45,806 nucleotides of DNA from Candidatus Rokuibacteriota bacterium (GTDB lineage: Bacteria; Methylomirabilota; Methylomirabilia; Rokubacteriales; CSP1-6), in contig JAUSJX010000083.1 in the NCBI GenBank assembly GCA_030647435.1, positions 1-45,806 on the forward strand, read 5' to 3'. Made by a program: the position numbers and the translations under genes. Shown here one piece after another: positions 18,094-38,213 of the stretch; the stretch's first letter is position 1, and each line of letters begins with the position of its first letter. Below the pieces are notes generated by a model. The model ran no database searches, was not told the DNA's origin, and saw nothing but the letters and a program-made list of their open reading frames with translations.

Positions 18094-19482
18094 ATGAGCC
18101 TCAAGATACTGGTAGTTGATGACGAGACCGCCGCGCGGAGGGGGCTGGTGTCTCTCCTCTCGGGCTGGGGCTACGCCGTCGAGGAAGCCGCCGACGGGCA
18201 GGAAGCCCTCGAAAAGGCCGTCGCCGGCCTGCCGTCAGTGGTCATCACCGACCTCGTCATGCCCCGTCTCGACGGCCACGCTCTCCTCAAGGCGCTGCGC
18301 GAGGAAGCGCCCTTTGCCGCCGTCATCCTTTTAACAGGGCAGGGCAGTATCGAGACCGCCGTGGCCGCCATGAAGGACGGCGCCTACGACTACCTGACCA
18401 AGCCCGTGGAGGTGGCGCGCCTCAAGCTGCTCATTCCCAAGGCCGCCTCCAGCAGCGAGGCCCTGCGCGAGGTCGCGCTCCTGCGCCGTCAGCTCCGCCA
18501 AGTCATGGGTATGGGGCGGCTGGTGGGCACCGGGCCCGCGATGCAGGCGCTCTACCGGATGATCGAGATGGCGGCGCCCACGCCGGCGCCGGTCCTGATC
18601 TCGGGGGAGAGCGGCACGGGCAAGGAGCTGGTGGCGCGGACCATCCACGAGCTGTCGCCGCGGGCGCAGGCGCCATTCGTCGCGGTCAACTGCGCGGCCA
18701 TTCCCGAGACGCTCCTCGAGAGCGAGATCTTCGGCCATGAGAAGGGCGCCTTCACGGGCGCGCTCGAGCGCCGGGCCGGCTGCTTCGAGCTCGCGCACCA
18801 GGGGACGCTCTTCCTCGACGAGATCGCCGAGATGAACCCGGCGATGCAGGCCAAGTTCCTTCGGATCCTCGAGACCAGCGTGGTCAGGCGCCTGGGCGGC
18901 CGCGCCGAGGTCAAGATGGACGTGCGCGTGCTGGCGGCCACGAACAAGGACCCACAAAAGGCGCTGCGAGATGGCACGCTTCGCGAGGACCTGTACTACC
19001 GCCTGAACGTGGTCAGCCTTGCGCTGCCGCCGCTCCGCGACCGGCGCGAGGACATCCCGCTCCTCATCCAGGCCTTCGTCGAGGAGTTCAACGCCAAGTA
19101 CGACAGGCGCATCGGCGGCGTCGACCAGGCGGCGCAGGCGGCGCTCGAGGCGGCCCCGTGGCCCGGCAACGTGCGCGAGCTGAGGAACACCCTCGAGCGG
19201 GCGGTCATCGTCTGCGGCGAGGGGCGGATCGGCCTCAGGCACCTGGCTGATCCGTCCGGCAGCGCCAGCCCGCGGGCGGCCGCCCCGCTCCCCGAGCATC
19301 CCTCGGCGGTGTCCGGGAACGACTTGGCCGTGCCCATCGGGACGAGCCTGGATGAAGCGGAAAAGCAGCTGATCCTGCGCACGCTTGCCGCCCAGGACAA
19401 CAACAAGACGCGGGCCGCTCAGGTTCTGGGTATCAGCCTCAAGACGCTGCATAACAAGCTCAAGGCGTACGGCGGCCCATGA
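18094..19482 (+). CDS. NtrC-family sigma-54-dependent response regulator
   Basis: A complete 462-residue regulator. Receiver: Asp53 in TDLVMPRLDG, Thr81, Lys103. AAA+ domain: Walker A GESGTGKE (residues 172-179), sigma-54 loop GAFTGA (219-224), Walker B LFLDEIAEM, DVRVLAATNKD, and RLNVVSLALPPLRDRREDIPLL. The C-terminal Fis-type helix-turn-helix (NNKTRAAQVLGISLKTLHNKLKAYG) should bind a palindrome. It overlaps the kinase gene by 4 nt, so they form a two-component pair. It is the best candidate for the protein that binds the GTAA-N3-TTAC sites in the window (inference), two of which lie in its own promoter region. Confidence 0.93.
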   Translation: MSLKILVVDDETAARRGLVSLLSGWGYAVEEAADGQEALEKAVAGLPSVVITDLVMPRLDGHALLKALREEAPFAAVILLTGQGSIETAVAAMKDGAYDYLTKPVEVARLKLLIPKAASSSEALREVALLRRQLRQVMGMGRLVGTGPAMQALYRMIEMAAPTPAPVLISGESGTGKELVARTIHELSPRAQAPFVAVNCAAIPETLLESEIFGHEKGAFTGALERRAGCFELAHQGTLFLDEIAEMNPAMQAKFLRILETSVVRRLGGRAEVKMDVRVLAATNKDPQKALRDGTLREDLYYRLNVVSLALPPLRDRREDIPLLIQAFVEEFNAKYDRRIGGVDQAAQAALEAAPWPGNVRELRNTLERAVIVCGEGRIGLRHLADPSGSASPRAAAPLPEHPSAVSGNDLAVPIGTSLDEAEKQLILRTLAAQDNNKTRAAQVLGISLKTLHNKLKAYGGP

Positions 19483-20963
19483 GGCTCCGGCTGGGGATCC
19501 GCTTCAAGGAAGCGGTCGCGGTCAGCCTGGTCGCGCTGACCCTGGTGGCGGTGACCACGGCTGTGCACCTCGCCCAGCTCACCCGCGTGATAGTGGAGGA
19601 GGCGGGGCGCCAGGTCCAGCTCGTGGCGCGGCAGATCTACGCCCAGAGCAGCCGCTCGATCCTGCGGGGGTCGCGGCGGGCCCCGAATGAATTGCTGCGG
19701 CGGGACGGCGAGCTCCGCGGCTTCCTTGATGCCAGCGTCGGCTACTCGCCACACCTGCTGTACGTGCTGATCGCCGACCGCGCCGGGCGGGTCATCGTGC
19801 ACACGGAGCGGCCGCGGGAGGGGACCGTGGCGCCGGTCTACCCAAGCCTCGACGCGCTCCTGAAGGAGAACGCCGCCTCGCGCTTTCTCACCCTCTATCG
19901 CGCCGGGCAGACGTACGAGGTCGTGCTGCCGATGAACCTGAACGGCGAGCCCTTCGGGAGCATTCGGCTGGGACTCAGCACGACGCTCCTCAGGCGCGAG
20001 CTCAACTCGGCCCTGCGCCAGAGCCTGACGCTGGCCGCGCTGGCCCTGCCGCTGGCGTGGCTCGTGGCCTGGGCCCTCGCGCGGCTGATGCTGAAGCCCC
20101 TGCGCTCGCTGACGCGGGAGGTCGGGCGGCTCGCCCGCGGCGAGTTCGAGATCGCGCCGTCCAGAGTAGCGCACGACGAGTTCCAGGAGCTGTCCGCGGA
20201 CCTCCAACGGCTGGGGCAGCAGCTCGAGCCGGCCCGCGTGGCCATGCTCTCCGAGCGCGCCCACGTGACCGTCCAGTCACTCGTGAGCTACTCCCAGCGG
20301 CTGGCGGCGCTCGGCCGCCTGACCTCGGGGGTGGCCCACGAGGTCAAGAATCCGCTCAACGCGATGATGATCCATCTCGAGCTTCTCAAGGAGCGGCTGG
20401 ACGCACCTTCCCAGGAGGTGCAGCAGAGCCTGGAGGTGATCGGCAGCGAGATCCGGCGTCTCGACCGCGTCGTGCAGGGTTTCCTGCGCTTCATGCGGCC
20501 GCACGAGCTGGAGCTCAAGGCCATCGAGGTCGCGACGCTCGTCCAGAGCGCCGTGGTGCTCGTCGAGGCCGAGTGGCAGAGCCAGGGGATCCGCTTTGCC
20601 GTCGAGGTGGCGCCGGGGCTGCCCACCATCGAGGCCGACGAAGAGCTTCTCCGGCAGGCCTTGCTCAACCTCATCCAGAACGCCTGCCAGGCCATGCCGC
20701 GCGGCGGCTTCGTCACGGTCGGGGCCCGGGTCGAGGGCACCACGCTCTGCCTCGAGGTGACGGACGAGGGCGTGGGCATCGCGCCCGACGACGTCGAGCG
20801 CATCTTCACGCTGTATTACACGACCAGGCCCGACGGCACCGGCATCGGGCTCTCGGTCGTCTACCGCATCGTGCAGATGCACGACGGCTCGATCGACGTG
20901 CGGAGCGAGCTCGGCCGGGGCACGACCATGACGGTCCGGCTGCCATTGAGGGGAGCGCGATGA
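19479..20963 (+). CDS. Membrane sensor histidine kinase (NtrB/ZraS-like)
   Basis: A 494-residue kinase. TM1 about residues 11-33, an extracytoplasmic domain 34-180 (with PHLLYVLIADRAGRVIVHTE, a PAS/CACHE-like fold signature), TM2 about 181-203, HAMP 204-255, HisKA with His287 in SGVAHEVKNPLNAM, and an ATPase with LIQNACQAMPRGG, DEGVGI, and TRPDGTGIGLSVVYRI. The short final HATPase box and EVKNPLN are typical of NtrB-like kinases that partner NtrC regulators. It detects an envelope signal and phosphorylates the regulator at 18094 (inferred from the overlap). The next gene encodes a lipoprotein that might take part in sensing. Confidence 0.92.
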   Translation: MRLRLGIRFKEAVAVSLVALTLVAVTTAVHLAQLTRVIVEEAGRQVQLVARQIYAQSSRSILRGSRRAPNELLRRDGELRGFLDASVGYSPHLLYVLIADRAGRVIVHTERPREGTVAPVYPSLDALLKENAASRFLTLYRAGQTYEVVLPMNLNGEPFGSIRLGLSTTLLRRELNSALRQSLTLAALALPLAWLVAWALARLMLKPLRSLTREVGRLARGEFEIAPSRVAHDEFQELSADLQRLGQQLEPARVAMLSERAHVTVQSLVSYSQRLAALGRLTSGVAHEVKNPLNAMMIHLELLKERLDAPSQEVQQSLEVIGSEIRRLDRVVQGFLRFMRPHELELKAIEVATLVQSAVVLVEAEWQSQGIRFAVEVAPGLPTIEADEELLRQALLNLIQNACQAMPRGGFVTVGARVEGTTLCLEVTDEGVGIAPDDVERIFTLYYTTRPDGTGIGLSVVYRIVQMHDGSIDVRSELGRGTTMTVRLPLRGAR

Positions 20964-21448
20964 GACTCGCGCTGCTCGTTGTCGCGGCGTGCCTGGGCCT
21001 TACGGGCTGCGCGACGATCAAGAGCTGGTTCGCGCCTTCGACCCCGCCCGCCGGGGCCGAGCAGCCGGAGGAGCGCGCGAGGCGAGCCGCGCCCCCGCCG
21101 ACATCGAGCCCACCGCACGCGGCGCCGCCGCGTCCCGGCACGCCGGCGCCTGCGCCGCCTCCGGTCCCCGCTGACGCGCCGCCGCCTGTGCTCTCGCCCG
21201 TGCTGAGCGCAGTGGATGAGCAGAGGCTCCGCGCCGAGACCCAGCAGCGCATCGACGGCGCCGAGCAGCGTCTGCGCCAGATCGATCAGGCGAAGCTCGC
21301 GTCCGGTCAGCAGGACAGCCTGCAGACCGTCCAGAGCTTCCTCGACAAGGCGCGCGAGGCGCTCCAAGCGCAGGACGTCCAGCGTGCCTTCACCCTGGCC
21401 GACAAGGCGTACCTTTTGGCGGACGAGCTGGCCAGACGCCCGCGTTGA
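20960..21448 (+). CDS. Proline-rich lipoprotein with helical C-terminus
   Basis: A 162-residue protein whose ATG overlaps the kinase stop (ATGA). Lipoprotein signal ALLVVAACLGLTGC, then a Pro/Ala-rich spacer (about residues 30-85), then a helical region (RLRAETQQRIDGAEQRLRQIDQAKL... QSFLDKAREALQAQDVQRAFTLADKAYLLADEL) that looks like a TPR-like pair of helices. Probably outer-membrane anchored. Its place in the two-component operon suggests an accessory role in signal perception. No named family. Confidence 0.75.
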   Translation: MRLALLVVAACLGLTGCATIKSWFAPSTPPAGAEQPEERARRAAPPPTSSPPHAAPPRPGTPAPAPPPVPADAPPPVLSPVLSAVDEQRLRAETQQRIDGAEQRLRQIDQAKLASGQQDSLQTVQSFLDKAREALQAQDVQRAFTLADKAYLLADELARRPR

Positions 21449-21587: not shown

Positions 21588-21602
21588 TGGCACGGGCCTT
21601 GC
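21588..21602 (+). promoter_or_regulatory. Sigma-54 promoter of the otsBA operon
   Basis: TGGCACGGGCCTTGC, a perfect match. The predicted start (about 21614) is only 2 nt before ATG 21616, implying a leaderless or nearly leaderless otsB message. Confidence 0.8.
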
Positions 21603-21615
21603 GCATGGACACCGT

Positions 21616-22437
21616 ATGCACAACGGTCTGGTCGAAGACGCCAAAGTACTCACGGATCGGATAGGGGAATGGCTGGGCGACGGCCGCAGTCTCCTGTTCA
21701 TGACCGACTATGACGGCACGCTGACGCCGCACGTGCCGAACCCGGCCGAAGCCTGGCTCGGGCAGCGAGTGCAGCGACAGCTCTCCGCGCTGGCCCGGGC
21801 GCCGCAGGTCCGCCTGGCTATCGTCTCCGGGCGAGATCTCGGCGATGTGACTGCGCGCGTCGGCGTCGCCGGCGCGGTCTACGCGGGCTGCCATGGCCTT
21901 CAGGTCGACGGGCCCGGCATCGCGTTCAGTCATCCGGAGGCGGTCGCGCAGCAGCGGACAGTGCAGGCGGTCGGCGAGGAGCTCGCGCAGCGGGTCGCGG
22001 GGATCGACGGCGTGCGGGTCGAGCCCAAGCGTCTCTGCATCACCGTCCACTACCGCGACGTGCCGGACGAGGCGCGGCGCCTGGTCGCGGTCGAGCTGGA
22101 GCAGGCCCTCGCGCGCGAGGGGGGGCGGCTCAAGATCTTCCACGGCACCAAGGCCATCGAGATCCTGCCGCAGGTGGCCTGGAGCAAGGGGCACTGCGCC
22201 AAGCAGATTCGCGACTGGGCGCTCCAGACACTTCCGAAACCCATGCTCTCCGTCTACATGGGCGACGACTGGACCGATGAGCTGGCCTTCGAGGCGCTCC
22301 TGGGGCAGGCCATCACGGTGCGCGTGGGCCCCCCGGACATCGTCTCCCGCGCCACCTACCGGCTCGACGACGTAGACGCCGTTCACGAGCTGATCGAGCG
22401 CCTGGCGACCGTGGTCGGGTGGCGGCCCGTGCCATGA
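21616..22437 (+). CDS. otsB: Trehalose-6-phosphate phosphatase
   Basis: A 273-residue HAD phosphatase that removes phosphate from trehalose-6-phosphate. Motif I MTDYDGTL (nucleophile first Asp), motif II IVSGRD, cap-domain substrate contacts (CHGLQ, KRLCITVHYRD), motif III Lys in WSKGH, and motif IV MGDDWTDE. The start is set at ATG 21616 because the sigma-54 promoter ends at 21602; a longer frame from 21559 would begin upstream of it. No ribosome site is visible. The stop overlaps the otsA start (ATGA), so OtsA product is handed to OtsB from one coupled message. Cytoplasmic. Confidence 0.9.
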   Translation: MHNGLVEDAKVLTDRIGEWLGDGRSLLFMTDYDGTLTPHVPNPAEAWLGQRVQRQLSALARAPQVRLAIVSGRDLGDVTARVGVAGAVYAGCHGLQVDGPGIAFSHPEAVAQQRTVQAVGEELAQRVAGIDGVRVEPKRLCITVHYRDVPDEARRLVAVELEQALAREGGRLKIFHGTKAIEILPQVAWSKGHCAKQIRDWALQTLPKPMLSVYMGDDWTDELAFEALLGQAITVRVGPPDIVSRATYRLDDVDAVHELIERLATVVGWRPVP

Positions 22438-24758
22438 GCATCGCGGCGCGTCTCGTGGGAGCCATCTGGCTCGCGGCTCTCGTCGTTACAGGCGGCTTCA
22501 CGTATCTCCAAGTTGTCGAGGAGCGGCGGCACCTGTTCGACGACATGGAGCGCCGCGCTGCGGCGCTCGGCGAGGGGTTGAAGGAGGCCGCGGAGCCGGC
22601 CCTCGCCCGGGGAGGCCGGCCCACGCTCGAGCGGCTCGCCGCCAAGTTCGGCCGGCGGGGCCAGGGTGTGGCCTTCCTAGACCGCGCCGGGACGGTCCAG
22701 GCCGCGACGCCGGACATCGGCCCCGTGGTCCCGCAGGTATTTCCGGATGGGGTGGCGGCGCTCAACAGCGGGGAGACGCGGCGCGGGCTCGCTCTCGTGG
22801 ACGGCCGCTCTTTCTATGTGTATGCGAGCCCCGTGCTGCGCGACGAGCGCAACATCGGCGTGGTGCTCGTCGTGCTCGACGCACGGCCTCTGGTCGAGGC
22901 CCAGTGGCGGATCTGGCAGAACAACGGGCTCCGCTTCCTGGTGCTCGTGGTCGTCCTCTCGGGGATCGCGCTCCTGATCGTTCGCATGAGCGTGATTCAG
23001 CCGCTGGCCAGCATGGCCCGCTGGACCAAGGATCTCCGCCGCGGCGCCCCCGCGAGCCCGCTCGAGCTCTCGGACTCCAGGCTCTTCGGTCCCATGGCGC
23101 GCGAAGTCTCGGTCCTGGCGAAGAGCTTCCACCGCGCGCAGGCGGCGGCGGAAGAAGAGGCGGCGCTCCGGCTGTCGGGCGAAACGCTCTGGACCGAGGA
23201 GCGCCTGAAGCAGTTCGTCAAGCTGCGGCTGGGAGGCTCCCCGCTTTTCGTCGTCTCGAACCGGGAGCCCTTGAGCCATGTCTGGAAGGACGGCAGGATC
23301 CAGACGGAGCACCCGGCCTCCGGGCTCGTGACGGCCATGGAGCCCGTGATGCGCGCCTGCGGCGGCGTCTGGGTGGCGCAGGGCAGCGGCGACGCGGACC
23401 GCGAAACGGCGGACGAGGCGGGCCGGCTCGGGCTGCCGCCGGACGATCCTCGCTACACGCTGCGCCGGCTCTGGCTCACCAAGGAGGAGGAGGCGGGCTA
23501 CTACTCCGGCTTCGCCAACGAGGGGCTGTGGCCCCTCTGCCACCTCGTGCACACCCGCCCGCAGTTCCGTCCCGAGGACTGGGCGCACTATACGGCGGTC
23601 AACGAGAAGTTCGCCGCGGCCATCCTCGAGGAGGTGGCGGACGTGGATGCGCCGCTCGTTCTCATTCAGGACTACCACTTCGCGCTCTTGCCGGCGCTCA
23701 TCAAGCGTGAGCGTCCGGATGCCCGCGTCGTGATCTTCTGGCACATTCCCTGGCCCAATGCCGAGGCCTTCGGCATCTGCCCATGGCAGCATGAGCTGCT
23801 GCTGGGCATGCTCGGCGCCGACCTCGTGGGCTTCCATACGCAGTACTACTGCAACAACTTCCTCGAGACCGTCGAGCGGGCCATCGAGGCGCGCGTCGAG
23901 TGGGAGCAGTTCGCCGTCACCCGCGGACAGCGGACGACGCTCGTCAAGCCGTTTCCGATCAGCGTGGCGCCCAACTTCGTCGCCAACCCGCCGAACGTCT
24001 CCCGCGCGGACCTCCTGCGCGGGCTCGGCATCTCCTGCGAGTTCCTGGGGGTCGGCGTCGAGCGGCTCGACTACACCAAGGGCCTGCCCGAGCGCATCCG
24101 GGCCATCGGGCGGTTCCTCGAGCGCTCTCCCGAGTACCAGGAACGCCTCGTCTTCGTCCAGCTGGCGGCGCCGAGCCGCTCGAGCATTGCGCGCTATCAG
24201 GAGATCGACGCCGAGGTGGATGCCGCCGTGCGCGACGTCAATACGCGCTTCGCCACGAGGAAATGGCGGCCGGTGCTCTACCTCAAGCGGCACCACGACC
24301 ACCGGGAGATCTGGCCCTTCTACCGCCACGCCGACTTCTGCATGGTCACGTCGCTCCACGACGGCATGAATCTGGTCGCCAAGGAGTTCGTCTCGGTCCG
24401 TGAGGACGGGGGGGGCGCTCTCATCCTGAGCCAGTTCACGGGGGCGGCGTCGGAGCTCCGCGACGCGCTGCTCGTCAATCCCTATGACCTCGACGGCGTG
24501 GCCGACGCCATCCGCCGCGCCGTCGAGATGCCGGGCGCCGAGCAGCGCGCCCGCATGGGCCGGATGCACCAGACGGTGCGGGAGCACAACATCTACCGCT
24601 GGGCCGGGCTGCTCCTGGGGGAGCTGTCCCGCATCCCCGAGGAGCCCGCCGGGACCCTGGCGGTCTCAACCCCTGCGGTGTCCAGCCCTGCAATCTCGAG
24701 CCCTGCAGTCTCCAGCCCCGCAGTCTCCAGGAGGATGAGCGATGAAGACGCTGCGTGA
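22434..24758 (+). CDS. otsA: Trehalose-6-phosphate synthase (GT20) fused to a membrane sensor module
   Basis: A 774-residue protein with an N-terminal module not found in ordinary OtsA (about 470 aa): TM1 residues 5-25, an extracytoplasmic domain 26-163 (VAFLDRAGTVQAATPD, then YVYASPVLRDERNIGVVLVVLD, a CACHE-like pattern), TM2 165-185, and a HAMP-like helix pair 186-240. The GT20 domain starts near 268 (PLFVVSNREP) and keeps the key residues: Asp in QDYHFALLP, His in FWHIPWP, Arg/Lys in ERLDYTKGLP, and DGMNLVAKE. It should transfer glucose from a nucleotide-glucose to glucose-6-phosphate at the inner face of the membrane. The C-terminal tail (AVSSPAISSPAVSSPAVS) is low complexity. Glucosylglycerol-phosphate synthase is the alternative GT20 activity. 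Confidence 0.88.
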   Translation: MSIAARLVGAIWLAALVVTGGFTYLQVVEERRHLFDDMERRAAALGEGLKEAAEPALARGGRPTLERLAAKFGRRGQGVAFLDRAGTVQAATPDIGPVVPQVFPDGVAALNSGETRRGLALVDGRSFYVYASPVLRDERNIGVVLVVLDARPLVEAQWRIWQNNGLRFLVLVVVLSGIALLIVRMSVIQPLASMARWTKDLRRGAPASPLELSDSRLFGPMAREVSVLAKSFHRAQAAAEEEAALRLSGETLWTEERLKQFVKLRLGGSPLFVVSNREPLSHVWKDGRIQTEHPASGLVTAMEPVMRACGGVWVAQGSGDADRETADEAGRLGLPPDDPRYTLRRLWLTKEEEAGYYSGFANEGLWPLCHLVHTRPQFRPEDWAHYTAVNEKFAAAILEEVADVDAPLVLIQDYHFALLPALIKRERPDARVVIFWHIPWPNAEAFGICPWQHELLLGMLGADLVGFHTQYYCNNFLETVERAIEARVEWEQFAVTRGQRTTLVKPFPISVAPNFVANPPNVSRADLLRGLGISCEFLGVGVERLDYTKGLPERIRAIGRFLERSPEYQERLVFVQLAAPSRSSIARYQEIDAEVDAAVRDVNTRFATRKWRPVLYLKRHHDHREIWPFYRHADFCMVTSLHDGMNLVAKEFVSVREDGGGALILSQFTGAASELRDALLVNPYDLDGVADAIRRAVEMPGAEQRARMGRMHQTVREHNIYRWAGLLLGELSRIPEEPAGTLAVSTPAVSSPAISSPAVSSPAVSRRMSDEDAA
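24669..24728 (+). repeat. Four 15-bp tandem repeats at the 3' end of otsA
   Basis: Units at 24669, 24684, 24699 and 24714 (consensus AGCCCTGCAGTCTCC) encode SSPAV/I repeats. The last unit runs into AGGAGG, the ribosome site of the CBS gene. Confidence 0.85.
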
Positions 24759-25203
24759 CCTCATGCGATCCGGCTTTCTCTTCACGGTACAGAAAAAGGC
24801 CATGGTGTCGGAGGCGGTCCGGCTCATGGCCGACCACAATGTCGGGATCGTGATCGTGCTGGACGGCACCCGGCTCGCGGGCGTCTTCTCCGAGCGTGAC
24901 GTGGTTCGACGCGTGCTGTATCAGGGCCTGGACCCTGTCCGGACACCGCTCGGCGAGGTCATGACCGGGTGCGTGATCACGGCTGACGCGGAGATGGACT
25001 ACGAGTCTGCCATGCGCGCCATGGACGAGGCCGGTATCCGCCACCTGCTCGTGACGAGCGGGTCGGGGATGCTGTCCATGATCTCGGTCCGGGACCTGAT
25101 GCGCGCGACCATCCACGACAGGGACGAAGAGGTCCAGCACCTGCGCGAGTACCTCTACCAGGTTCCGGCCGGGGGCTCCAAGCCGCAGGCGGCCTCCGTT
25201 TAG
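24742..25203 (+). CDS. CBS-domain pair protein, coupled to otsA
   Basis: A 153-residue tandem CBS protein: LRDLMRSGFLFTVQKKAMVSEAVRLMADHNVGIVIVLDGTRLAGVFSERDVVRRV, then VMTGCVITADAEMDYESAMRAMDEAGIRHLLVTSGSGMLSMISVRDLM. It overlaps the otsA 3' end by 17 nt, so it is cotranslated with the trehalose enzymes. Such modules bind adenine nucleotides, so it could tune the pathway to energy state (inference). It is related in design to the CBS protein at 4752. Its stop overlaps, tail to tail, the stop of the dodecin-like gene on the other strand. Confidence 0.85.
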   Translation: MKTLRDLMRSGFLFTVQKKAMVSEAVRLMADHNVGIVIVLDGTRLAGVFSERDVVRRVLYQGLDPVRTPLGEVMTGCVITADAEMDYESAMRAMDEAGIRHLLVTSGSGMLSMISVRDLMRATIHDRDEEVQHLREYLYQVPAGGSKPQAASV

Positions 25204-25451
25204 GGACGGGTCAGAAACCCGCCCGAGGCAGGGTCGAGCGGGTCGCTCACGCTCAGGTCTTCGTCGTCGGGGGTGTCCTCGGAGTCGTCATCGCTCGCGA
25301 CCATCCGGACGATGACCGTATCTTCGAGAACCCGTGCGCCATCGAGACGGAGCCAGCTGAAGCCCATGGCCGTGGCGCCCTGCACGGTGGTGTCCAGCGC
25401 CTCTTTGATCGCCCGCTCGAGCGTCTCCGGCGAATGGTCGGACAATGGCAC
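25200..25451 (-). CDS. Dodecin-like small protein with acidic tail
   Basis: An 83-residue frame from GTG 25451. HSPETLERAIKEALDTTVQGATAMGFSWLRLDGARVLEDTVIVRMVA matches the dodecin layout (SPxSWEDAxxxAVxxAxxTLxxxxxxxVxxxxGxxxxxxVxxYxVxxxV), followed by an unusual acidic tail (DDDSEDTPDDEDLS). Dodecins are flavin-storing dodecamers. A ribosome site (AAGGAGG) lies before an ACG codon at 25470-25472, which would add VTIETAV, the missing first strand. The true start may therefore be there, with ACG instead of ATG. Flavin-binding Trp is shifted (FSWLRLDG). Moderate family confidence. Confidence 0.5.
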   Translation of the reverse strand: MPLSDHSPETLERAIKEALDTTVQGATAMGFSWLRLDGARVLEDTVIVRMVASDDDSEDTPDDEDLSVSDPLDPASGGFLTRP

Positions 25452-25513
25452 GGCTGTTTCGATGGTGACCGTTCGGGCCCTCCTTCAAGCGAGCCTAGCG
25501 TGAGGCTCCGGAT

Positions 25514-25528
25514 TGGCACGGTCCTGGC
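25514..25528 (+). promoter_or_regulatory. Sigma-54-like promoter of a decayed gene
   Basis: TGGCACGGTCCTGGC, one mismatch. No activator-like site is seen upstream. It precedes the frameshifted fragment at 25542 and its surroundings (GCTCCGGATTGGCACG) resemble the promoter at 2772. Confidence 0.5.
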
Positions 25529-25541
25529 AAATCAAAAGGCC

Positions 25542-25693
25542 ATGACGGTGCCACCCATCTGCCTCACCGGCTCCGTGCTCGCCCCCAAGGGCAGCGTTTC
25601 TCCGGCAGCGCTCGACGATTGGTCACAAGCGACACCCCGGTCATCCTCGCCCGCGTCGAGCCAACTCCCGCAGGCTCATCCCCGTCATCTTGA
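25542..25693 (+). pseudogene. Fragment related to the hypothetical protein at 3426
   Basis: ATG 25542 opens GSVLAPKGSVSPAALDDWSQ; after a one-base loss near 25630 another frame continues DTPVILARVEPTPAGSS to TGA 25691-25693. This parallels PVLVHKASIPPEALNDW...MPVILTRVELGPDSS in the protein at 3426. The N-terminal half is absent. A decayed paralogue, not a working gene. Confidence 0.55.
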
Positions 25694-25879
25694 ATGCGGG
25701 CTGGGGGGCGCGACCGAAACTCCGCGAGCGCCGGTCTTCTCGATCGCCCGGGCCACCAGACCCGACGCGAGGTCGGCGCGCGCCGACGGAGGCACGTGAG
25801 GCGAGGACGCGCAGGTGGTCATGAGGACCACACTAGCAAATCCCAGTACCAGGGCGAACAGCCGGCGGGTCCGAGCCAT
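25685..25879 (-). CDS. Possible small lipoprotein
   Basis: A 64-residue frame with a basic start, hydrophobic core and Cys (RRLFALVLGFASVVLMTTCASS), then a short Ala/Ser/Pro-rich mature part. No clear ribosome site, and the lipobox (LMTTC) is imperfect. The only gene-like signal in 25694-26120; the rest of that 300-bp stretch holds nothing I can name. Confidence 0.4.
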   Translation of the reverse strand: MARTRRLFALVLGFASVVLMTTCASSPHVPPSARADLASGLVARAIEKTGARGVSVAPPSPHSR

Positions 25880-26120
25880 GAGGCGGCCAGGGTAGCGCCC
25901 ATCACGGCCCGGGAACAGAAGCCTGGAGGCCCGCCCGAGCGGGAGTATCCTGATACTCGAGGTGCGGGCCGGCTCCCGGCTCGCCTCGAGCCGTGGCGTA
26001 CCCGGTCGATGCCGCTACTCGAGGCGGGGCCGGACGGCCCTGATGGACCGGAACTCCGACACCCCGGTAGCCCACGCGCGACATGCCGTCGGGTGCGGCG
26101 GAGCTGAAGGAGGCACGACC

Positions 26121-26822
26121 ATGGCAGAGATGTGGAGCGGTCTCGTCTGGGCGGCTCTGCGGGATCTCAACACGCGGCTGGTGGCGGTGCTGCCGAGCAT
26201 CCTCGCCATGCTGACGCTGGCGGCCGTAGGACTCGTCGCCGCCTGGGTCGCCGCCCTGCTGCTGAAGCGGCTCGCCCGGGCGGTGGCCTTCGACCAGCGC
26301 GCCGAGACCTGGGGACTCGTATCCCCGATCACGCGCGCGGGTCTTCGCCGGTCCCCCTCCCAGCTGCTCTCGGTTATGGTGTTCTGGGCGATCTTCGTCC
26401 TCTTCCTGACCCTTGCCGTGGATGCCCTCGCCATTCCCGGCGCGGGCCGGGTCACGGATTTCGTCTTCGCCTGGGTGCCCAGGGCCGTCGGCGCCGCCGT
26501 CATCTTCCTCGTCGGCTGGCTCGTGGCAAACTTCCTCGGCGAAGGCGCGCTGATCGCGGCGGTCAACGCCGGAGTGCCGGAGGCGCGGCTCCTGGCCCGC
26601 GCGGTGCGCTGGGGAGTGCTGCTCTTCGCCAGCGCCACGGCGGTCACCCACCTCGGCATCGGCAAGGAGATGGTGCTGGTCGCCTTCGGCATCACGTTCG
26701 GCGGGCTGATCCTGGCTCTGGCCCTGGCCTTCGGCCTCGGGGGGCGCGCGCTGGCCCGACAGATCCTGGAGCGCCGGCTCCGCCACGATCCTCACCCGAG
26801 CGAGACGCTCACGCACCTGTGA
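26121..26822 (+). CDS. Multi-pass membrane protein with MscS-like conserved TM helices
   Basis: A 233-residue protein with about five hydrophobic segments: LPSILAMLTLAAVGLVAAWVAALLL, LLSVMVFWAIFVLFLTLAVDAL, VPRAVGAAVIFLVGWLVANFLG, WGVLLFASATAVTHLG and VLVAFGITFGGLILALALAFGLGG. The end GITFGGLILALALAFGLGGRALA is the conserved helix shared by MscS-type channels and TM_helix proteins, but no cytoplasmic beta domain follows. It may be a truncated-type channel or membrane tension sensor. AAGGAGG precedes ATG 26121. It is 56 bp upstream of treY and could be first in that operon, which would fit osmotic adaptation. Confidence 0.75.
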   Translation: MAEMWSGLVWAALRDLNTRLVAVLPSILAMLTLAAVGLVAAWVAALLLKRLARAVAFDQRAETWGLVSPITRAGLRRSPSQLLSVMVFWAIFVLFLTLAVDALAIPGAGRVTDFVFAWVPRAVGAAVIFLVGWLVANFLGEGALIAAVNAGVPEARLLARAVRWGVLLFASATAVTHLGIGKEMVLVAFGITFGGLILALALAFGLGGRALARQILERRLRHDPHPSETLTHL

Positions 26823-26878
26823 GAGCCCCGGATCGAGAGCGCCCCGGCCCCCGGTCGGGCCATGATGCCGGCGCCGCC

Positions 26879-29800
26879 GTGACGGACCTCGACGCCCTGC
26901 TCGAGCAGGGCGTCGCGGCGCTCGCGCGCCCGCGGCGCGCGACGTACCGGCTCCAGCTCGGACCGGCGCTGCGCTTCGAGGACGTCGGCGCGCTGGCTCC
27001 ATACCTGGCCGCGCTCGGGGTGAGCGACGCCTATCTCTCGCCCTGCTTCAAGTCCGGCCCCGGCAGCTCCCAAGGGTACGACGTCACCGACCACAGCGCC
27101 TTCAATCCCGAGGTCGGCAGCGAGACGACGTTCGCCCAGATGGCGGGGACGCTCGGCGCGCACGAGATCGGGGTGATCCTGGATATCGTCCCCAATCTCA
27201 TGGGCATCGTCGGGGACGCGAATCCCTGGTGGACCGACGTGCTCGAGAACGGGCCGTCGTCCCCCTACGCGAGGTTCTTCGACATCGACTGGGCGCCGGT
27301 GAAGCCCGAGCTCTACGGCAAGGTCCTGCTGTCGGTCCTGCCCGACCAGTACGGCCGCATGCTGGAGTCCCAGCAGCTCCGGCTCGAGTTCTCCGAGGGG
27401 GCGTTCGTCGTGCTCTATGCGGGGGAGCGCCTGCTCGTCGCGCCCGACTCGTACGCGCAGGTACTTTCCTACCGTCTCGAGACGCTCGGCGCGCGCCTGT
27501 CGCCCGAGGATCCGCACCTGCGGGAGCTCCAGAGTATCCTCACGGTGCTCGAACACCTGCCCGCGCAGATGGAGACGGATCTTGCGCGCTCCGAGGAGCG
27601 GCTCCGCGAGAAGGAGATTATCAAGCGCCGGCTGGCGGCCCTGGTCAAGGAGTCGACCGAAATCCGCGAGTTCCTCGACGACAATGTCCGGCTTTTCAAT
27701 GGGACGTCTGGCGATCCGGCGAGTTTCGATCTGCTCGACCGCCTGCTCTCGGCGCAGGCCTACCGCCTTGCCGACTGGCGGGTGGCCGGCGACGAGGTCA
27801 ACTACCGCCGCTTCTTCGACGTCAATCACCTGGCCGCCATCCGGACGGAGTTCCGCGAGGTCTTCGACGCGAGCCACCGGCTGGTCTCTCGCCTCGTCGG
27901 CGACGGCGCGGTGACGGGACTCCGCGTGGATCATCCCGACGGTCTCTACGCCCCGGGCGAGTACTTTCGCCGGCTGCAGGAAGAGGCCCTCCTCGGCGCG
28001 CCGCCCGCCGCCTGGCGCCCGGCCTACCGGGCCAGGCAGCGGAGGCGCTTCTCGCACGCTATAGGGAGGTGGCGGCGGATCCGGCGGCGCCTGCCGCGCG
28101 GCCCCTCTGGCTCGTCGGCGAGAAGATCCTCATGGCCGACGAGCGCCTGCCCGAGTGGTGGCGCGTCGCGGGCACGACAGGCTACGATTTCCTCGGATCC
28201 GTCAACGGCCTCTTCGTGGACCGCGGCCACGTCCGGCAGATGACGGGGCTCTACACCCGCTTCGCCGGGGCCGCCCCGCCCATGGCCGACATCGCCTATG
28301 CGGCCAAGCGGCTGATCATGCAGGTGTCGATGGCGAGCGAGGTCAATCAGCTCGGTCACCATCTCGACCGGATCTCCGAGAGGCGGCGGCACGCGCGCGA
28401 CTTCACCCTGCACAGCCTGATCCGCGCGCTGCGCGAGGTCATCGCCTGCTTCCCCGTGTACCGGACGTACATCGGCGACGAAGGGCCCGAGATGAGCCCG
28501 CGCGACCTCGCGTTCGTCGAGCGCGCCGTGGCGGAAGCCAAGCGGCACAATCCGACGGTGAACGTGTCCATCTTCGATTTCGTCCACGACATTCTCCTGC
28601 TGCGGGAGCCCCCGGGGGGGGCCGGCGGCGACGACGGGCGCCATCACTTCGTGATGCGCTTCCAGCAGACCACGGGCCCCGTGACGGCCAAGGGCGTCGA
28701 AGACACGGCGCTGTACATCTACAACCGGCTCGTCTCGCTGAACGAGGTCGGAAGCGATCCGGCCCGGTTCGGCGAGCCCGTGCCGGCCTTCCACGAGAAG
28801 AAAGCGAGGCGCCGGGCGCGCTGGCCGCAGTCGCTGCTGGCCACATCCACGCACGACACCAAGCGGGGCGAAGACGTGCGCGCGCGTATCAGCGTGCTCT
28901 CGGAGATCCCCGCCGAGTGGGGCGTCTGCGCCCGCCGCTGGCGCGCCATCGGGAAGCGGTGGAAGCGGGAGGTCGACGGGCAGGCCGCGCCGGACCGCAA
29001 CGACGAGTATCTGCTCTACCAGACGCTGGTCGGCGCCTGGCCGGCGGAGCCGCAGCCGGACCTTGGGGCGTTCACGACCCGCATCTGCGAGTACATGGAG
29101 AAGGCCACCAAGGAGGCCAAGCCCAATACAAGCTGGGTCAACCCGCATGCCGCCTACGACGCGGCGACCCGGGAGTTCGTCACGGGGCTCCTCGCTCCCA
29201 GCGGGCGCTTCCTCGACGAGTTCCTGTCGTTCCAGCAGCGGGTCGCGCGCTACGGCATGGTCAACTCGCTCGCCCAGACCCTGCTCAAGCTCGGGGCTCC
29301 AGGGGTGCCGGATATCTACCAGGGGGCGGAGCTCTGGGATCTCTCGCTGGTGGATCCCGACAACCGGCGCCCCGTAGACTTCGCCCGGCGCCAGTCGCTC
29401 CTGACGGCCCTGGATGCCCTCGTCGCGGACCGCGGCGATGACCTGGCGGGGCTGTGCGGCCTGCTGCTCGAGAGCTGGGCCGACGGACGGGTGAAGCTCT
29501 ACCTGATCCGGCGCGGGCTCGCGTTGAGGCGGGAGCGGCCGGCCCTGTTCGAGGCGGGGACGTACCTCCCGCTGGAGGCCTGCGGAGAGCGCGCCGAGCA
29601 TCTCGTCGGCTTCGCCCGCGCCAAGGCGGGCGGCGCCGTCATCGTGGCCGTCCCGAGGCTCACCGCTCGCCTGACGGGATTTTCGGGTGCCCTCGCCCTG
29701 GGCGCCCCACCGTGGGGCGAGACCTGGCTCTCGCTCGGCAGCGACGCTCTCGCGGGACGCTTCCGCGATCGACTCACCGGCGGAGTGCTCGAAACGGAGC

Positions 29801-29883
29801 GTCGCGGCGGCGCGCCGACGCTGCCGGCGACCGCGCTCTTCGCGAGCTTCCCGGTGGCGCTGCTCGAGCCGGAGGCGCCATGA
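26879..29883 (+). pseudogene. treY: Maltooligosyl trehalose synthase, one frameshift
   Basis: Converts the reducing end of an alpha-1,4-glucan into a terminal trehalose unit by intramolecular transglucosylation. The first part (GTG 26879) has ATYRLQLGPALRFEDVGALAPYLAALGVSDAYLSPCFKS and the nucleophile block TGLRVDHPDGLY. Near 28025 the frame is lost, and it resumes one frame over with AAEALLARYREV...LWLVGEKILMADERLP (acid/base Glu), TTGYDFLGSVNGLF, VMRFQQTTGPVTAKGVEDTALY, STHDTKRGEDVRAR and GVPDIYQGAELW, all canonical. One missing base restores about 1,000 residues. Either a sequencing error or an inactive gene. treZ follows 28 bp later. Confidence 0.9.
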
Positions 29884-29911
29884 CCGCCGCCGCGCGCGGG
29901 CTCGACTGACC

Positions 29912-31744
29912 ATGGCGCTCGCCCTCCGCCGCGCCCGAAGCATGCCGTTCGGGGCCGAGGCCCGCGACGACGGTGTCACCGGCTTCCGGCTCTGGGCTCC
30001 CGGTGCCCACAGCGTGGCGTTGTGGCTGGACGAGCGGAGGCGCGCCCTGCCCATGCCCCGCGATCCGCAGGGCTGGGCGGCGCTGGCAACCCCCGAGGCG
30101 CCGCCCGGCACGCGCTATCGCTATCAGATCGACGGCGAGTTCCTCGTGCCCGACCCGGCCTCGCGCTTTCAGCCCGACGGCGTGCATGGTCCGAGCGAGG
30201 TCGTGGATCCGCTCGCCTACTCCTGGTCCGACGCGGAGTGGGAGGGTGTTGCGGTCGAGCGGCTGGTGTTCTACGAGCTGCACGTGGGAACCTTCACTCG
30301 CGCGGGAACCTTTGCGGCCGCAGCCGAGCGGATCGACCATCTGGCCGCGCTCGGCGTCACCGCGGTCGAGCTGATGCCCGTGGGCGAGTTCCCCGGCTGC
30401 CGGAGCTGGGGATACGACGGCGTCCTGCCGTTCGCCCCCGCGGCCCGGTATGGGCGCCCCGAAGACCTCAAGCTCTTCGTCGACGCCGCCCACGCCCGCG
30501 GCCTTGCGGTGTTCCTCGACGTGGTCTACAACCACTTCGGGCCCGAAGGCAACTACCTGCCCCGCTACGCGCCCGCCTTCTTCGACCCTCGCCGCCAGAC
30601 GCCGTGGGGCGCGGCGATCAACTTCGCCGACGCGGGCTCCGAGATCGTTCGGGCCTTCATGGTCCACAATGCCCTCTACTGGCTCGAGGAGTTCCACATG
30701 GACGGCCTTCGCCTGGACGCGGTCCATGCGATCAGCGACGAGTCCCGCTCGCACGTGCTCGTCGAGCTGGCGCAGGTCGTGGCCAAGGGCCCCGGCGGCG
30801 AGCGGCAGGTCCACCTCGTGCTCGAGAACGACGGCAACGAGGCCCACCTCCTCGCCCGCGACGGCGCGCCGCTCTACAGTGCGCAGTGGAACGACGACGT
30901 GCACCACGCCCTGCACGCGCTGCTCACGGGCGAGCGAGGCGGCTACTATGCCGACTACGAGCCGGCGGCGCCGGCGCTCGGTCGCGCCCTCGCCGAGGGC
31001 TTCGTCTACCAGGGCGAGTACTCGCGCTACCGCGGCCGCCCGCGCGGTGAGCCGAGCGGAGACCTCCCACCCACCGCCTTCGTCGGCTTTCTCCAGAACC
31101 ACGATCAGGTGGGCAACCGCGCGTTCGGCGAGCGCATCACGGCACTGGCGGGGCCGGACGCAGTGAGGGCGGCCACGGCCGTGCTCTGCCTCGCTCCGCC
31201 GCTCCCCTTGCTGTTCATGGGCCAGGAATGGGCCGCCCCCGTGCCCTTCCTCTTCTTCAGCGACCTGGGTCCGGACTTCGGCCCGGCCGTCGCGGAGGGC
31301 CGGCGGCGCGAGTTCGCCCGCTTCCCCGAGTTCGCCGACGCGGGAGCGCGCGAACGGATCCCCGACCCGCAAGCACTGGAGACTTGGGAGCGGTCGGTGC
31401 TCGACTGGAGCCTCGCCGACCTGCCGGCGCATCGGGAGTGGCTGGACCTCCACCGAGCGCTGCTCCGCATCCGGCACGCCGAGATCGTGCCATTGCTGCA
31501 GAACCCTATCGCGCCGCGGGCGCGCTGGAGCCGTCTCGGCGAGACGGCGCTTGAGGTCGAGTGGACATTCCCGGTCCGGCGGGTGCTGCGCCTCGTCGCC
31601 AACCTCGGCCCGGCGGCGGTGCCTCACGTGGGGCCGCGACCAGAGTGGGGACGGTCGCTCTACGCGCTTGGGCTCGGCCGGGAAGGCTGGGCGGAGCTGC
31701 CGCCGTGGAGCGTGGGCTGGTATCTGGCGGAGGCCGAGCGATGA
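29912..31744 (+). CDS. treZ: Maltooligosyl trehalose trehalohydrolase
   Basis: A 610-residue GH13 enzyme that releases trehalose from maltooligosyl-trehalose. N-terminal E-set domain (GFRLWAPGAHSVALWLD), then the barrel: VFYELHVGTFT, VTAVELMPVGEFPG, WGYDGVLPFAP, DVVYNHFGPEGNYL, nucleophile in DGLRLDAVHAI, acid in VLENDGNEA, and VGFLQNHDQVGNRAFGER, all diagnostic of TreZ rather than GlgB. It pairs with treY in the expected order. Its last 85 bp overlap the opposite-strand glgM frame if that gene is read through its amber codon. Confidence 0.93.
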   Translation: MALALRRARSMPFGAEARDDGVTGFRLWAPGAHSVALWLDERRRALPMPRDPQGWAALATPEAPPGTRYRYQIDGEFLVPDPASRFQPDGVHGPSEVVDPLAYSWSDAEWEGVAVERLVFYELHVGTFTRAGTFAAAAERIDHLAALGVTAVELMPVGEFPGCRSWGYDGVLPFAPAARYGRPEDLKLFVDAAHARGLAVFLDVVYNHFGPEGNYLPRYAPAFFDPRRQTPWGAAINFADAGSEIVRAFMVHNALYWLEEFHMDGLRLDAVHAISDESRSHVLVELAQVVAKGPGGERQVHLVLENDGNEAHLLARDGAPLYSAQWNDDVHHALHALLTGERGGYYADYEPAAPALGRALAEGFVYQGEYSRYRGRPRGEPSGDLPPTAFVGFLQNHDQVGNRAFGERITALAGPDAVRAATAVLCLAPPLPLLFMGQEWAAPVPFLFFSDLGPDFGPAVAEGRRREFARFPEFADAGARERIPDPQALETWERSVLDWSLADLPAHREWLDLHRALLRIRHAEIVPLLQNPIAPRARWSRLGETALEVEWTFPVRRVLRLVANLGPAAVPHVGPRPEWGRSLYALGLGREGWAELPPWSVGWYLAEAER

Positions 31745-32904
31745 GCGGCGATCGCTTCCCGGTAGACCTCGAGCGTTCGCTCAGCAATGCGCTCCCAGCT
31801 GAACTGCGCCTCGACGCGCCGGCGCCCGGCGCGGCCGAAGGCGGCGGCGCGCTCGGGCTGGGCGAGCAGGGCGCGCATCGCTGCGGCCAGGGCGGCGGGA
31901 TCGGCGGGCGGTACGAGCTAGCCGGTCTCGTCGTGGACGACCACCTCGCGGATGCCCCCCACGCCCGTGGCGACGACCGGGGTGCCGCAGGCCATCGCCT
32001 CGAGGTTGATCAGCCCGAAGGGCTCGTACACCGACGGGCAGACGAAGAGCGCGGCGTGGCTGTAGAGCTGCACCACGTCCTCCCGGGGCAGCATGGCGTT
32101 GAGCCAGCGCACGCGGGGGTGCTGCGTCACGGCAGCACCGAGCCGCGCCTCCAGCTCCCTGGTGTCGGGGCTGCTGGCGCACAGGACGAGCTGGGTGTCC
32201 TCCGGCAGTCCCGCAGCGGCCTCGAGGAGATGAAAGATCCCCTTCTGCTCGCTGATGCGCCCCACGAACAGGACGTACGGGGTGCGGACGCTGTACCGGT
32301 CCAGAGCGTCCCGGCGCTCGGTGCGGCGGAAGGCCCCGGTGTCCACGCCGTTGTGAATAACCCGGACGCGCTCCGCGTCGACGGAGAAATGAGCCAGCAC
32401 GTCCTCGCGCATCTGCCCCGAGACGGCGATGACCCGATCGGCACTCTCCACGGCCACGCGCTCCGCCCATCGCGACACCGCGTACCCCGCGCCGAGCTGC
32501 TCCGCCTTCCAGGGCCGGAGGGGCTCGAGGCTGTGGAGGGTGACCACGAGCGGGATGTCGGAGAGCGTGCGAACGAGGAGTCCGGCCAACGCCACGTACC
32601 AGGTATGCGAGTGCACGACGTCGGCGTCCACGCGGTCGCGGGCCATGAGCAGGTCGGTCGAGAGGGCTTCGAGCGCCGGCGCATAGCGGGCGTCGCCCGT
32701 TCCTGTCGGCGGGCTCTCGGCCAGCCGGTCCCAGGACGGATAGCCGCGCACGCGCAGCCCGTGTTCGGACCGCTCATCACCACCAAAGCAGCGCACCTCG
32801 ACCCCAGCCCGGCCGGCGAGCGCGCGGCTCAGGTGGTCGACGACGACGCCTGCGCCGCCGTAGACGTGCGGCGGGTACTCGCGGGTGAGCATCAGCACTC
32901 GCAT
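31660..32904 (-). pseudogene. glgM: GT4 maltose-1-phosphate synthase, interrupted by in-frame TAG
   Basis: Begins MRVLMLTREYPPHVYGGAG at 32904 and has DVVHSHTWYVALAG, LHSLEPLRPWKAEQLG, VIHNGVDTGAF, FVGRISEQKGI and FVCPSVYEPFGLINLEAMACGTPVV. These are the marks of actinobacterial-type GlgM/GlgA, which joins ADP-glucose to glucose-1-phosphate (maltose-1-phosphate for GlgE) or extends glucan. A TAG at 31918-31920 interrupts HDETG*LVPPADPAAL; Tyr (TAC) is expected in this TGYLVPP block. The frame continues without a shift (FSWERIAERTLEVYREAI) to 31660. It is the only minus-strand gene inside this plus-strand island, with just 46 bp to the divergent DUF5752 gene. Confidence 0.85.
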
Positions 32905-32950
32905 GGAGACGTTCCCATCACCCGTCGGCGCCATCAGAGACCCTCCCGTC

Positions 32951-33613
32951 ATGCCCGCGGCTGAACCCTTCGTCTTCCAGGGATGCGTCCAGGTCTGCGA
33001 GCTGCTCCCTCACGAGGCGCACGACGCGCGCGAGCTGCTCGAGGAGATCAGGCGCGTGCCCGCCGAGTCCATCTTCTGCCACACCTCCGTGCTGCTGGTG
33101 CACCGCCCACCGCAGCCGGACGCCTATCCCAATGACTTCGCGCTGTGGGCGGACATCGAGCTTCGCGACCGGCGCCTCACCGAGCGGCTCGCCGCCATCG
33201 ATCCGTTCCGGCTCGGTTCCATCGAGGGCGTCCGTGCCGAGCTCGTCTCCACCCTCGAGCATCACCTGCAGCAGCTCTCCGCCGCGCCATCCCGCGCGGG
33301 CGAGCCGTTTCGATTCCTACAGTATCACCTCGTGCCCGTCCCGACGGGCCACGAGGTGCGGACGCTCCGGGAGTTCCGGGACGCCCTCACCGGGGTCGAT
33401 GCCAGCACCCTCTTCTTCCACATCATCGAGGCGCGCTACCGGCTCGGGCGCGGGCGGGGCGACTTCGCCGAATGGGTCGACACGGCCCTCGGCCGCCATG
33501 AGCTCGCCGAGCGCCTGAGCCATATCGATCCGTACGCCGGCACGCTCGAGCGGGTCCGGGAGCGGCATCTCATCGCGCTCAACCGGGCGCTGGAAGAGGA
33601 GGGCGGAGCGTGA
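32951..33613 (+). CDS. DUF5752 family protein (copy 1)
   Basis: A 220-residue protein with FVFQGCVQVCELLPHEAHDARELLEEI, SIFCHTSVLLVHRP, DAYPNDFALWADIELRD, and DFAEWVDTALGRHELAERLSHIDPY, duplicated about midway (each half has FxxH...NDFA/DFAEW...L.IDP). It matches DUF5752, which is usually found beside TreT-type glycosyltransferases. Its stop overlaps the GTG of the next gene (GTGA). Copy 2 at 44282 has the same layout with its TreT. Likely a partner or regulatory subunit of TreT; no activity known. Confidence 0.82.
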   Translation: MPAAEPFVFQGCVQVCELLPHEAHDARELLEEIRRVPAESIFCHTSVLLVHRPPQPDAYPNDFALWADIELRDRRLTERLAAIDPFRLGSIEGVRAELVSTLEHHLQQLSAAPSRAGEPFRFLQYHLVPVPTGHEVRTLREFRDALTGVDASTLFFHIIEARYRLGRGRGDFAEWVDTALGRHELAERLSHIDPYAGTLERVRERHLIALNRALEEEGGA

Positions 33614-34806: not shown

Positions 34807-34822
34807 GAAACGGGCCCATGCC

Positions 34823-38058: not shown

Positions 38059-38077
38059 CACGATGAGCAAAACTCCA

Positions 38078-38202
38078 CAGGCTGCTCAAAAAGGTCCAGA
38101 TGCGAGGCGGCGCCTGACGGCCGCACGCGAAGCGTACTCTTTGTACGTTGAGCGTGCGGCCGAGGGCGCCAACGAAGCAGATGGGCCTTTTTCAGCAGCC
38201 TG
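38078..38202. repeat. MITE-like palindromic element between glgE and treS
   Basis: A 125-bp near-palindrome. The left end CAGGCTGCTCAAAAAGGTCC mirrors the right end CAGGCTGCTGAAAAAGGCCC (read on the other strand). The inner arms GGCCGCACGC...GCGTGCGGCC also pair. No coding capacity. It lies within the operon and ends 11 bp before treS; a strong transcript hairpin is expected there. Confidence 0.8.
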
Positions 38203-38213
38203 TTAGGGGAGCC

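Follow-up and report, generated by a model that had tools for sequence, protein, structure and literature searches.

Architecture of the protein and its gene

The window analysed here is a stretch of 45,806 nucleotides from a Candidatus Rokuibacteriota genome (contig JAUSJX010000083.1; the genome comprises 5.79 Mb in 176 contigs). Its central element is a plus-strand gene at 22434-24758 that encodes a protein of 774 residues, a predicted trehalose-6-phosphate synthase of glycosyltransferase family 20 (GT20) fused to a sensor, as identified from the open reading frame, the Pfam GT20 match and an AlphaFold2 model. The gene is a single open frame that starts with an ATG at 22434 and whose stop codon ends at 24758, and the nearest named relatives of the protein are from Candidatus Rokubacteria/Methylomirabilota. 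The predicted order of domains is a first transmembrane helix (TM1), an extracytoplasmic Cache domain, a second transmembrane helix (TM2), a HAMP-like linker, a signalling helix and the GT20 domain.

Hydropathy and the model place TM1 at approximately residues 5-27 (22446-22514), at the start of a long helix, and TM2 at approximately residues 165-187 (22926-22994). Between them, approximately residues 28-157 (22515-22904) form a single Cache domain, assigned from a fold match and from the Pfam family sCache_3_2, which is weak here and significant in relatives. The HAMP-like linker, approximately residues 187-237 (22992-23144), is defined by a family profile and by conservation and consists of a helix to residue 202, a connector and a helix from residue 215. 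A signalling helix and a helix with the motif W253-T-x3-L258, which enters the GT20 domain, occupy residues 238-266 (23145-23231) and are delimited by conservation and by the helices of the model. The GT20 catalytic domain, residues 270-735 (23241-24638), was assigned from Pfam, a structure match and residue mapping, and its substrate residues are kept. The Ser/Pro/Ala/Val tail of the protein is encoded by a 15-bp tandem repeat of 4.5 copies (24663-24730), just before an overlapping CBS gene. All of these features are on the plus strand.

The structure was modelled by AlphaFold2 from an alignment of 79 homologs, with a mean predicted local distance difference test (pLDDT) score of 88.4 and disorder confined to the tail, residues 749-774. 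The model consists of helix 2-59 (TM1 and a membrane-proximal helix), a PAS-like sheet at 77-149, helix 151-202 (TM2 and the first HAMP helix) and, after the connector, helix 215-249 and a short helix 255-266 followed by the GT20 domain. A preliminary description of this DNA had proposed two membrane helices, an extracytoplasmic Cache-like domain and a HAMP-like linker in front of the synthase. This arrangement is borne out by hydropathy, by the presence of exactly two membrane helices in 119 of 122 family members, and by the model of residues 1-268 alone, which is of the transmembrane-sensor-HAMP type (pLDDT 87.5).

The GT20 domain

The Pfam GT20 family PF00982 matches residues 272-731 over profile positions 4-471 of 473 (E 2.5e-115), and when the whole predicted model is compared with solved OtsA structures its GT20 part matches 5jio with a TM-score of 0.91 by target length. 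In E. coli OtsA, glucose-6-phosphate is bound by Arg9, Trp40, Tyr76, Trp85 and Arg300, and UDP-glucose by Gly22, Asp130, His154, Arg262, Asp361 and Glu369 (PMC1769515). With residue roles taken from PMC1769515 and PMC6879718, the equivalents of Arg9, Gly22, Tyr76, Trp85, Asp130, His154, Arg262, Lys267, Arg300, Asp361 and Glu369 (E. coli numbering) were found to be invariant in 79 of 79 homologs; in the window synthase they are R277, G297, Y357, W366, D413, H437, R544, K549, R582, D643 and E651. The earlier statement that the active-site residues are kept agrees with this, one Trp of the WFGW motif being replaced. An active synthase, in a GT20 subfamily of its own, is therefore expected. The NCBIfam OtsA model TIGR02400 gives 420.4 bits, below its equivalog cut-off of 564.85, and the protein is best filed as a GT20 enzyme that presumably works like OtsA and not as an OtsA equivalog.

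The sensor module and its relatives among kinases

In the window synthase the sCache_3_2 match is weak, at 21.1 bits against a cut-off of 28.4 (E 3.5e-4, residues 1-268 searched alone), and Pfam HAMP has no match. Among the 79 relatives, 16 match sCache_3_2 (best E 1.1e-8) and four match Pfam HAMP (best E 3.5e-5), and the linker segment of the synthase aligns with the Pfam-recognised HAMP domains of the histidine kinases at loci L154 and L161. The predicted structure of residues 1-268 resembles the sensor folds of several kinases: WalK/YycG (5is1, Z 14.8 over 126 residues; 4ywz, Z 14.6), CitA (1p0z, Z 14.3), DcuS (3by8, Z 13.2) and KinD. A full-length WalK model, 9a5d, aligns with the predicted module over 255 residues with a Z of 15.8.

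A profile built from residues 1-267 of the sensor-GT20 family matches histidine kinases of the same phylum from the first residue through the end of HAMP, with 93 bits for L154, 85 bits for L161 (own genome, contig C155) and 41.7 bits for a kinase encoded in the window at 19479-20963. The kinases at L154 and L161 carry HAMP, HisKA and HATPase_c domains. Since these kinase sensors are homologous to the synthase sensor end to end, the enzyme occupies the usual place of a kinase core, and the view that a metabolic enzyme stands where a kinase output normally sits is upheld.

The window kinase gene is located 1.5 kb upstream of the synthase gene, and the two sensors are remote relatives. BLASTP of the kinase sensor against the synthase sensor gave no meaningful match, the sole match pairing unrelated parts. 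That the two proteins share one ligand is not supported, as BLASTP finds no real match and the 42-bit profile score indicates homology only. Elsewhere, at L154, L155 and L156 (genomes G031, G034 and G026), the synthase and otsB are followed downstream by a histidine kinase whose sensor shares homology with the synthase sensor; the pairing of an enzyme and a kinase read-out on related sensors is thus a recurrent one. The L161 kinase, a second one in this genome with a closely related sensor, is accompanied by a sigma-54 regulator and an otsB-like gene and has no GT20 gene nearby.

Conservation is distributed unevenly over the N-terminal half. In the family alignment P190, W197, R202 and E224 of the HAMP-like segment are near-invariant, as are A235, A239, E242, L245, R246 and T254 in the signalling and WT-x3-L helices, where W253 and L258 are invariant. 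The strongest N-terminal constraint thus falls in the transducing part (P190, W197, R202, E224, A239, E242, R246, W253 and L258). The ratio of nonsynonymous to synonymous substitution (dN/dS) between same-phylum neighbours is 0.12-0.59 for the Cache domain, 0.09-0.42 for TM2, HAMP and linker, and 0.06-0.21 for GT20; purifying selection acts on both halves of the protein. A conserved linker beside a variable Cache domain is what is usually seen in sensors whose input varies while the transmission stays fixed; it speaks for a functional transducer rather than a mere anchor, without proving it.

Distribution and origin

The homolog set consisted of the 80 best loci from other species, nearly all of them co-linear over residues 1-734 at 43-68% identity. 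They span Rokubacteria, Nitrospirota, Acidobacteriota, Elusimicrobiota, Omnitrophota, Thermodesulfobacteriota, Myxococcota, Bacteroidota (including the cultured Niastella soli, L078), Verrucomicrobiota, Edwardsbacteria and Daviesbacteria. A search for the same architecture, as the preliminary description had advised, returned 122 distinct sensor-GT20 proteins from at least ten phyla. Genome counts were taken from match tables in which each seed genome is included by construction. By this count a full-length member is present in 50 of 94 Methylomirabilota genomes, in 14 of 100 genomes from the phylum of the Nitrospirota seed, and in 10 of 119, 6 of 60, 6 of 79 and 4 of 198 genomes for the Acidobacteriota, Elusimicrobiota, Syntrophus and Bacteroidota seeds, respectively. 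The source genome has a second copy (L002, 50% identity) with the same plan, followed by otsB. No full-length sensor-GT20 member was found in plasmid records.

Frame length was rejected as a sign of sensor fusion because bifunctional OtsA-OtsB proteins of Bacteroidota and Nitrospirota are equally long (740-780 residues). At L091 (1471-4395, minus strand) a GT20 domain of the subfamily ends a 975-residue open frame, which may be only an open frame; its first 500 residues match no Pfam family. A decayed duplicate, an extra GT20 gene in two fragments, was seen upstream of an intact otsB-synthase pair at L157 (8965-9607, genome G080).

In a quick IQ-TREE phylogeny of GT20 domains (72 rows), classical OtsA and OtsAB are separated with starred support from a second subfamily. 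The latter holds fusions to trehalose-phosphate phosphatase (TPP) from Nitrospirota, Na+/H+-exchanger fusions from Acidobacteriota, soluble forms, and all the sensor fusions together. Two changes of the sensor label suffice on this tree, the second of them at a truncated member, L063, and the sensor-GT20 proteins behave in it as if of one origin within a subfamily distinct from classical OtsA. The fusion point can be placed at approximately residue 252, since the WT-x3-L helix forms the very start of some soluble forms (MWTKDRL in L138, for example). In the Acidobacteriota, the GT20 domain of this subfamily follows a Na+/H+ exchanger membrane domain (PF00999) in one polypeptide, an antiporter-synthase fusion. 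The exchanger domain was confirmed by Pfam at L182 (3507-7553, minus strand) and L184 (2921-5842, plus strand) and was assigned by the number of transmembrane helices at L183 (3069-6953, minus strand).

Operon and probable transcriptional control

The synthase ATG sits in the stop codon of otsB (21616-22437, plus strand), a 4-bp overlap (ATGA). The OtsB protein, a trehalose-6-phosphate phosphatase, scores 158.9 bits with TIGR00685 against a cut-off of 68, and in 53 of the 80 homologous loci otsB adjoins the sensor-synthase gene, whether before or after it and irrespective of strand. Further upstream, and also on the plus strand, are genes for an NtrC-type response regulator (18094-19482; receiver, sigma-54 AAA+ and Fis helix-turn-helix domains by Pfam), the sensor histidine kinase mentioned above (19479-20963; sCache_3_2 8.5e-9, HAMP 1.1e-5) and a small lipoprotein-like protein (20960-21448; N-terminus MRLALLVVAACLGLTGC; syntenic in L192-L194). 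A CBS-domain protein (24742-25203, plus strand; PF00571, 7.7e-18; syntenic in L192 and L193) overlaps the end of the synthase gene. The order regulator-kinase-lipoprotein-otsB-synthase is kept in genomes G060, G057 and G069, and the CBS gene is also found in G060 and G057.

A sigma-54-like site, TGGCACGGGCCTTGCG, with one mismatch to TGGCAC-N5-TTGCW, precedes otsB at 21588-21603 on the plus strand. Such a site is present before otsB in four of four syntenic genomes (window 21588, L192 7936 minus, L193 5961 plus, L194 9063 minus), where 0.009 would be expected per 300 bp and strand; in L194 the site is separated from otsB by an extra small reading frame. With a distance of only about 13 nt to the otsB ATG, the window site would yield a nearly leaderless message or be unused. 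No sigma-70 promoters were found in the region. The putative promoter is that of otsB, upstream, and the synthase would be reached by operon coupling. The proposal of a slower, sigma-54-dependent layer of control stands in part: it is supported by the NtrC-type activator and kinase upstream and by the site in four syntenic genomes, and is qualified by the position of the promoter before otsB and by the short spacing. In the window as a whole, sigma-54-like matches with at most two mismatches number 24, against a mean of 13 and a maximum of 21 in shuffled sequence, and are thus commoner than expected.

The region 21616-40482 of the window is a trehalose super-cluster of otsB, the sensor-synthase gene, treY, treZ, treT, a GlgE-like gene, treS and a maltokinase cap, which, as annotated, would put nearly every known trehalose route side by side. 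In this cluster treY (26132-29883) is split over two frames, with its N-terminal part in 26132-28243 and its C-terminal part in 27229-29883; the break near 28000 is either a frameshift or a sequencing error.

A proposed receptor-enzyme and the alternatives

The reading that we prefer, with a probability of about 0.6, is that the sensor-synthase is a one-component transmembrane receptor-enzyme whose output is the synthesis of trehalose-6-phosphate, the precursor of the stress sugar trehalose. It starts from the domain order, the homology to kinase sensors, the predicted topology, the conserved active site, the selection on all parts and the operon with otsB, all of which are read from sequence. 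From this architecture, selection and genomic context we infer gating by a signal, together with the ligand, the direction of control, a route through an active-site loop, a dimeric state and the product. Osmolarity or water loss, suggested previously as the signal, is a guess.

In the proposed mechanism the Cache domain would bind a small molecule outside the membrane or respond to a condition of the envelope. As in histidine kinases, the change would travel via TM2 and the HAMP-like linker; it would then reach the signalling helix, which runs into the N-terminus of the cytoplasmic GT20 synthase. OtsA is known to close when substrate binds, a movement that displaces helix 1 and the Arg35-Gly39 loop by up to about 12 A, and allosteric effectors of the mycobacterial enzyme are known as well (PMC6879718). 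In the predicted model the sensor helix is immediately followed by the strand that bears R277 and the loop leading to G297. Because OtsA catalysis involves the closure of a loop near the N-terminus (PMC6879718), an input from that end would be well placed. A HAMP rearrangement might shift the N-terminal segment and ease or block closure of the active-site loop beside the acceptor-binding Arg277 and Gly297, and this closure would determine how fast UDP- or ADP-glucose and glucose-6-phosphate are converted to trehalose-6-phosphate. The co-translated OtsB would then turn trehalose-6-phosphate into trehalose. In this genus, the adjacent kinase and sigma-54 activator probably add slower transcriptional control.

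Several observations weigh against this reading. The window synthase taken alone is below the Pfam cut-offs for both Cache and HAMP. Kinase or regulator neighbours are not the rule, as no more than about 9-11 of the 80 loci have them within 5 kb. The sensor is missing from soluble members of this GT20 subfamily, and a relative in Aminobacter has a single TM anchor and no Cache domain (606 residues, plasmid pANY103b, L204 3010-4830), so the sensor seems dispensable for activity in the subfamily. The second Trp of the OtsA WFGW motif, near the acceptor site, is Q316 in the window synthase, and across the family it is replaced by His in 60 and Gln in 7 of the 79; it is named here by its motif, as the 'Trp40' of PMC1769515 fits neither Trp exactly (38 and 41 when counted without Met).

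The main rival to a receptor-enzyme is that the N-terminal module is a membrane anchor only, which keeps the synthase at the membrane in the vicinity of a partner such as a sugar importer or OtsB and no longer passes a signal. The single-TM Aminobacter protein and the Acidobacteriota exchanger fusions speak for it, so membrane placement recurs with different modules, and the Cache domain is the least conserved part of the synthase. For anchoring alone, however, a 130-residue Cache domain, a HAMP segment and a conserved signalling helix would be superfluous, yet these have been kept in 122 proteins from at least ten phyla, and P190, W197, R202, E224, E242 and W253 of the linker are nearly invariant. 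We regard a mere anchor as unlikely, but as the alternative to be taken most seriously.

It has also been considered that the sensor gates a GT20 enzyme with another acceptor or donor, which makes a different phosphorylated disaccharide or glucoside. The OtsA score of 420 against a cut-off of 565, the family-wide exchange of a conserved OtsA Trp for His or Gln, and the place of the subfamily apart from classical OtsA would fit such an enzyme. The invariant glucose-6-phosphate contacts (equivalents of Arg9, Tyr76, Trp85 and Arg300), the adjacent OtsB above the trehalose-phosphatase cut-off, a window full of trehalose genes, and the lower score of the glucosylglycerol-phosphate synthase model (282 bits) all point back to trehalose-6-phosphate, and a different product seems improbable. 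A dead or regulatory GT20 domain that reads sugar phosphates, which would make the protein a receptor of metabolic state, has precedents in plant class II trehalose-phosphate synthases (TPS) and pseudoglycosyltransferases, in which GT20 folds have lost or changed function (established knowledge; PMC1769515). It is very hard to reconcile with catalytic and ligand residues that are invariant in 79 of 79 at every position checked, with strong purifying selection on the domain, and with its being the sole GT20 in most of the GT20-bearing genomes of the phylum. An artefact of assembly or gene calling is refuted by orthologues that keep the module in dozens of independent assemblies, including one complete chromosome (L064), by the single open frame and by the second sensor-synthase in the same genome.

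Kinases, cyclases and chemoreceptors are the outputs for which Cache-HAMP modules are mainly known, and database records label the relatives of this protein merely 'trehalose-6-phosphate synthase'. No paper that describes the architecture was found in the literature searched: papers joining trehalose-phosphate synthase with HAMP, Cache, a sensor domain or Rokubacteria gave none on point, a weak absence, as most subscription papers lay outside the search. We give even odds to the broader claim that this is a widespread, undescribed receptor family with a compatible-solute enzyme as output and kin on a Na+/H+ exchanger, in which an outside ligand or envelope condition sets trehalose synthesis without kinase, second messenger or transcription. 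If so, in the many soil and groundwater bacteria that carry the fusion, an outside signal may switch trehalose-6-phosphate production without a relay protein, by a direct membrane switch for stress-sugar synthesis. About half of the Methylomirabilota genomes sampled would possess it, and it would have a scattered occurrence across at least ten phyla. Adjustment of trehalose within seconds of an outside change would become testable with one protein, and a receptor that can be read out through its enzyme activity would be convenient as a model of HAMP signalling and for biosensors.

Comparison with known systems

OtsA from E. coli and Mycolicibacterium thermoresistibile has the same fold, the same donor and acceptor residues and an OtsB partner. 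However, OtsA is soluble, whereas the window synthase has a sensor of about 255 residues attached, falls into a different GT20 subfamily, lacks the second WFGW Trp and scores below the OtsA equivalog cut-off. Bifunctional OtsA-OtsB proteins (TPS/TPP; Thermoproteus tenax, PMC3634074; Bacteroidota) also link GT20 to trehalose-6-phosphate phosphatase function, but there the fused partner is the phosphatase, while here it is the sensor and otsB is a separate, overlapping gene. The Cache-HAMP histidine kinases WalK/YycG, CitA, DcuS and KinD share with the synthase the two TM helices, the extracytoplasmic Cache fold and the HAMP-like linker; the output of the synthase is a glycosyltransferase in place of HisKA/HATPase, and there is no phosphorelay. 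Transmembrane receptor-enzymes with a cyclase or diguanylate-cyclase output are similar in that a Cache-HAMP input is joined directly to a cytoplasmic enzyme, as is well established. Those receptors put out a second messenger, whereas the output of the window synthase would belong to the primary metabolism of a compatible solute.

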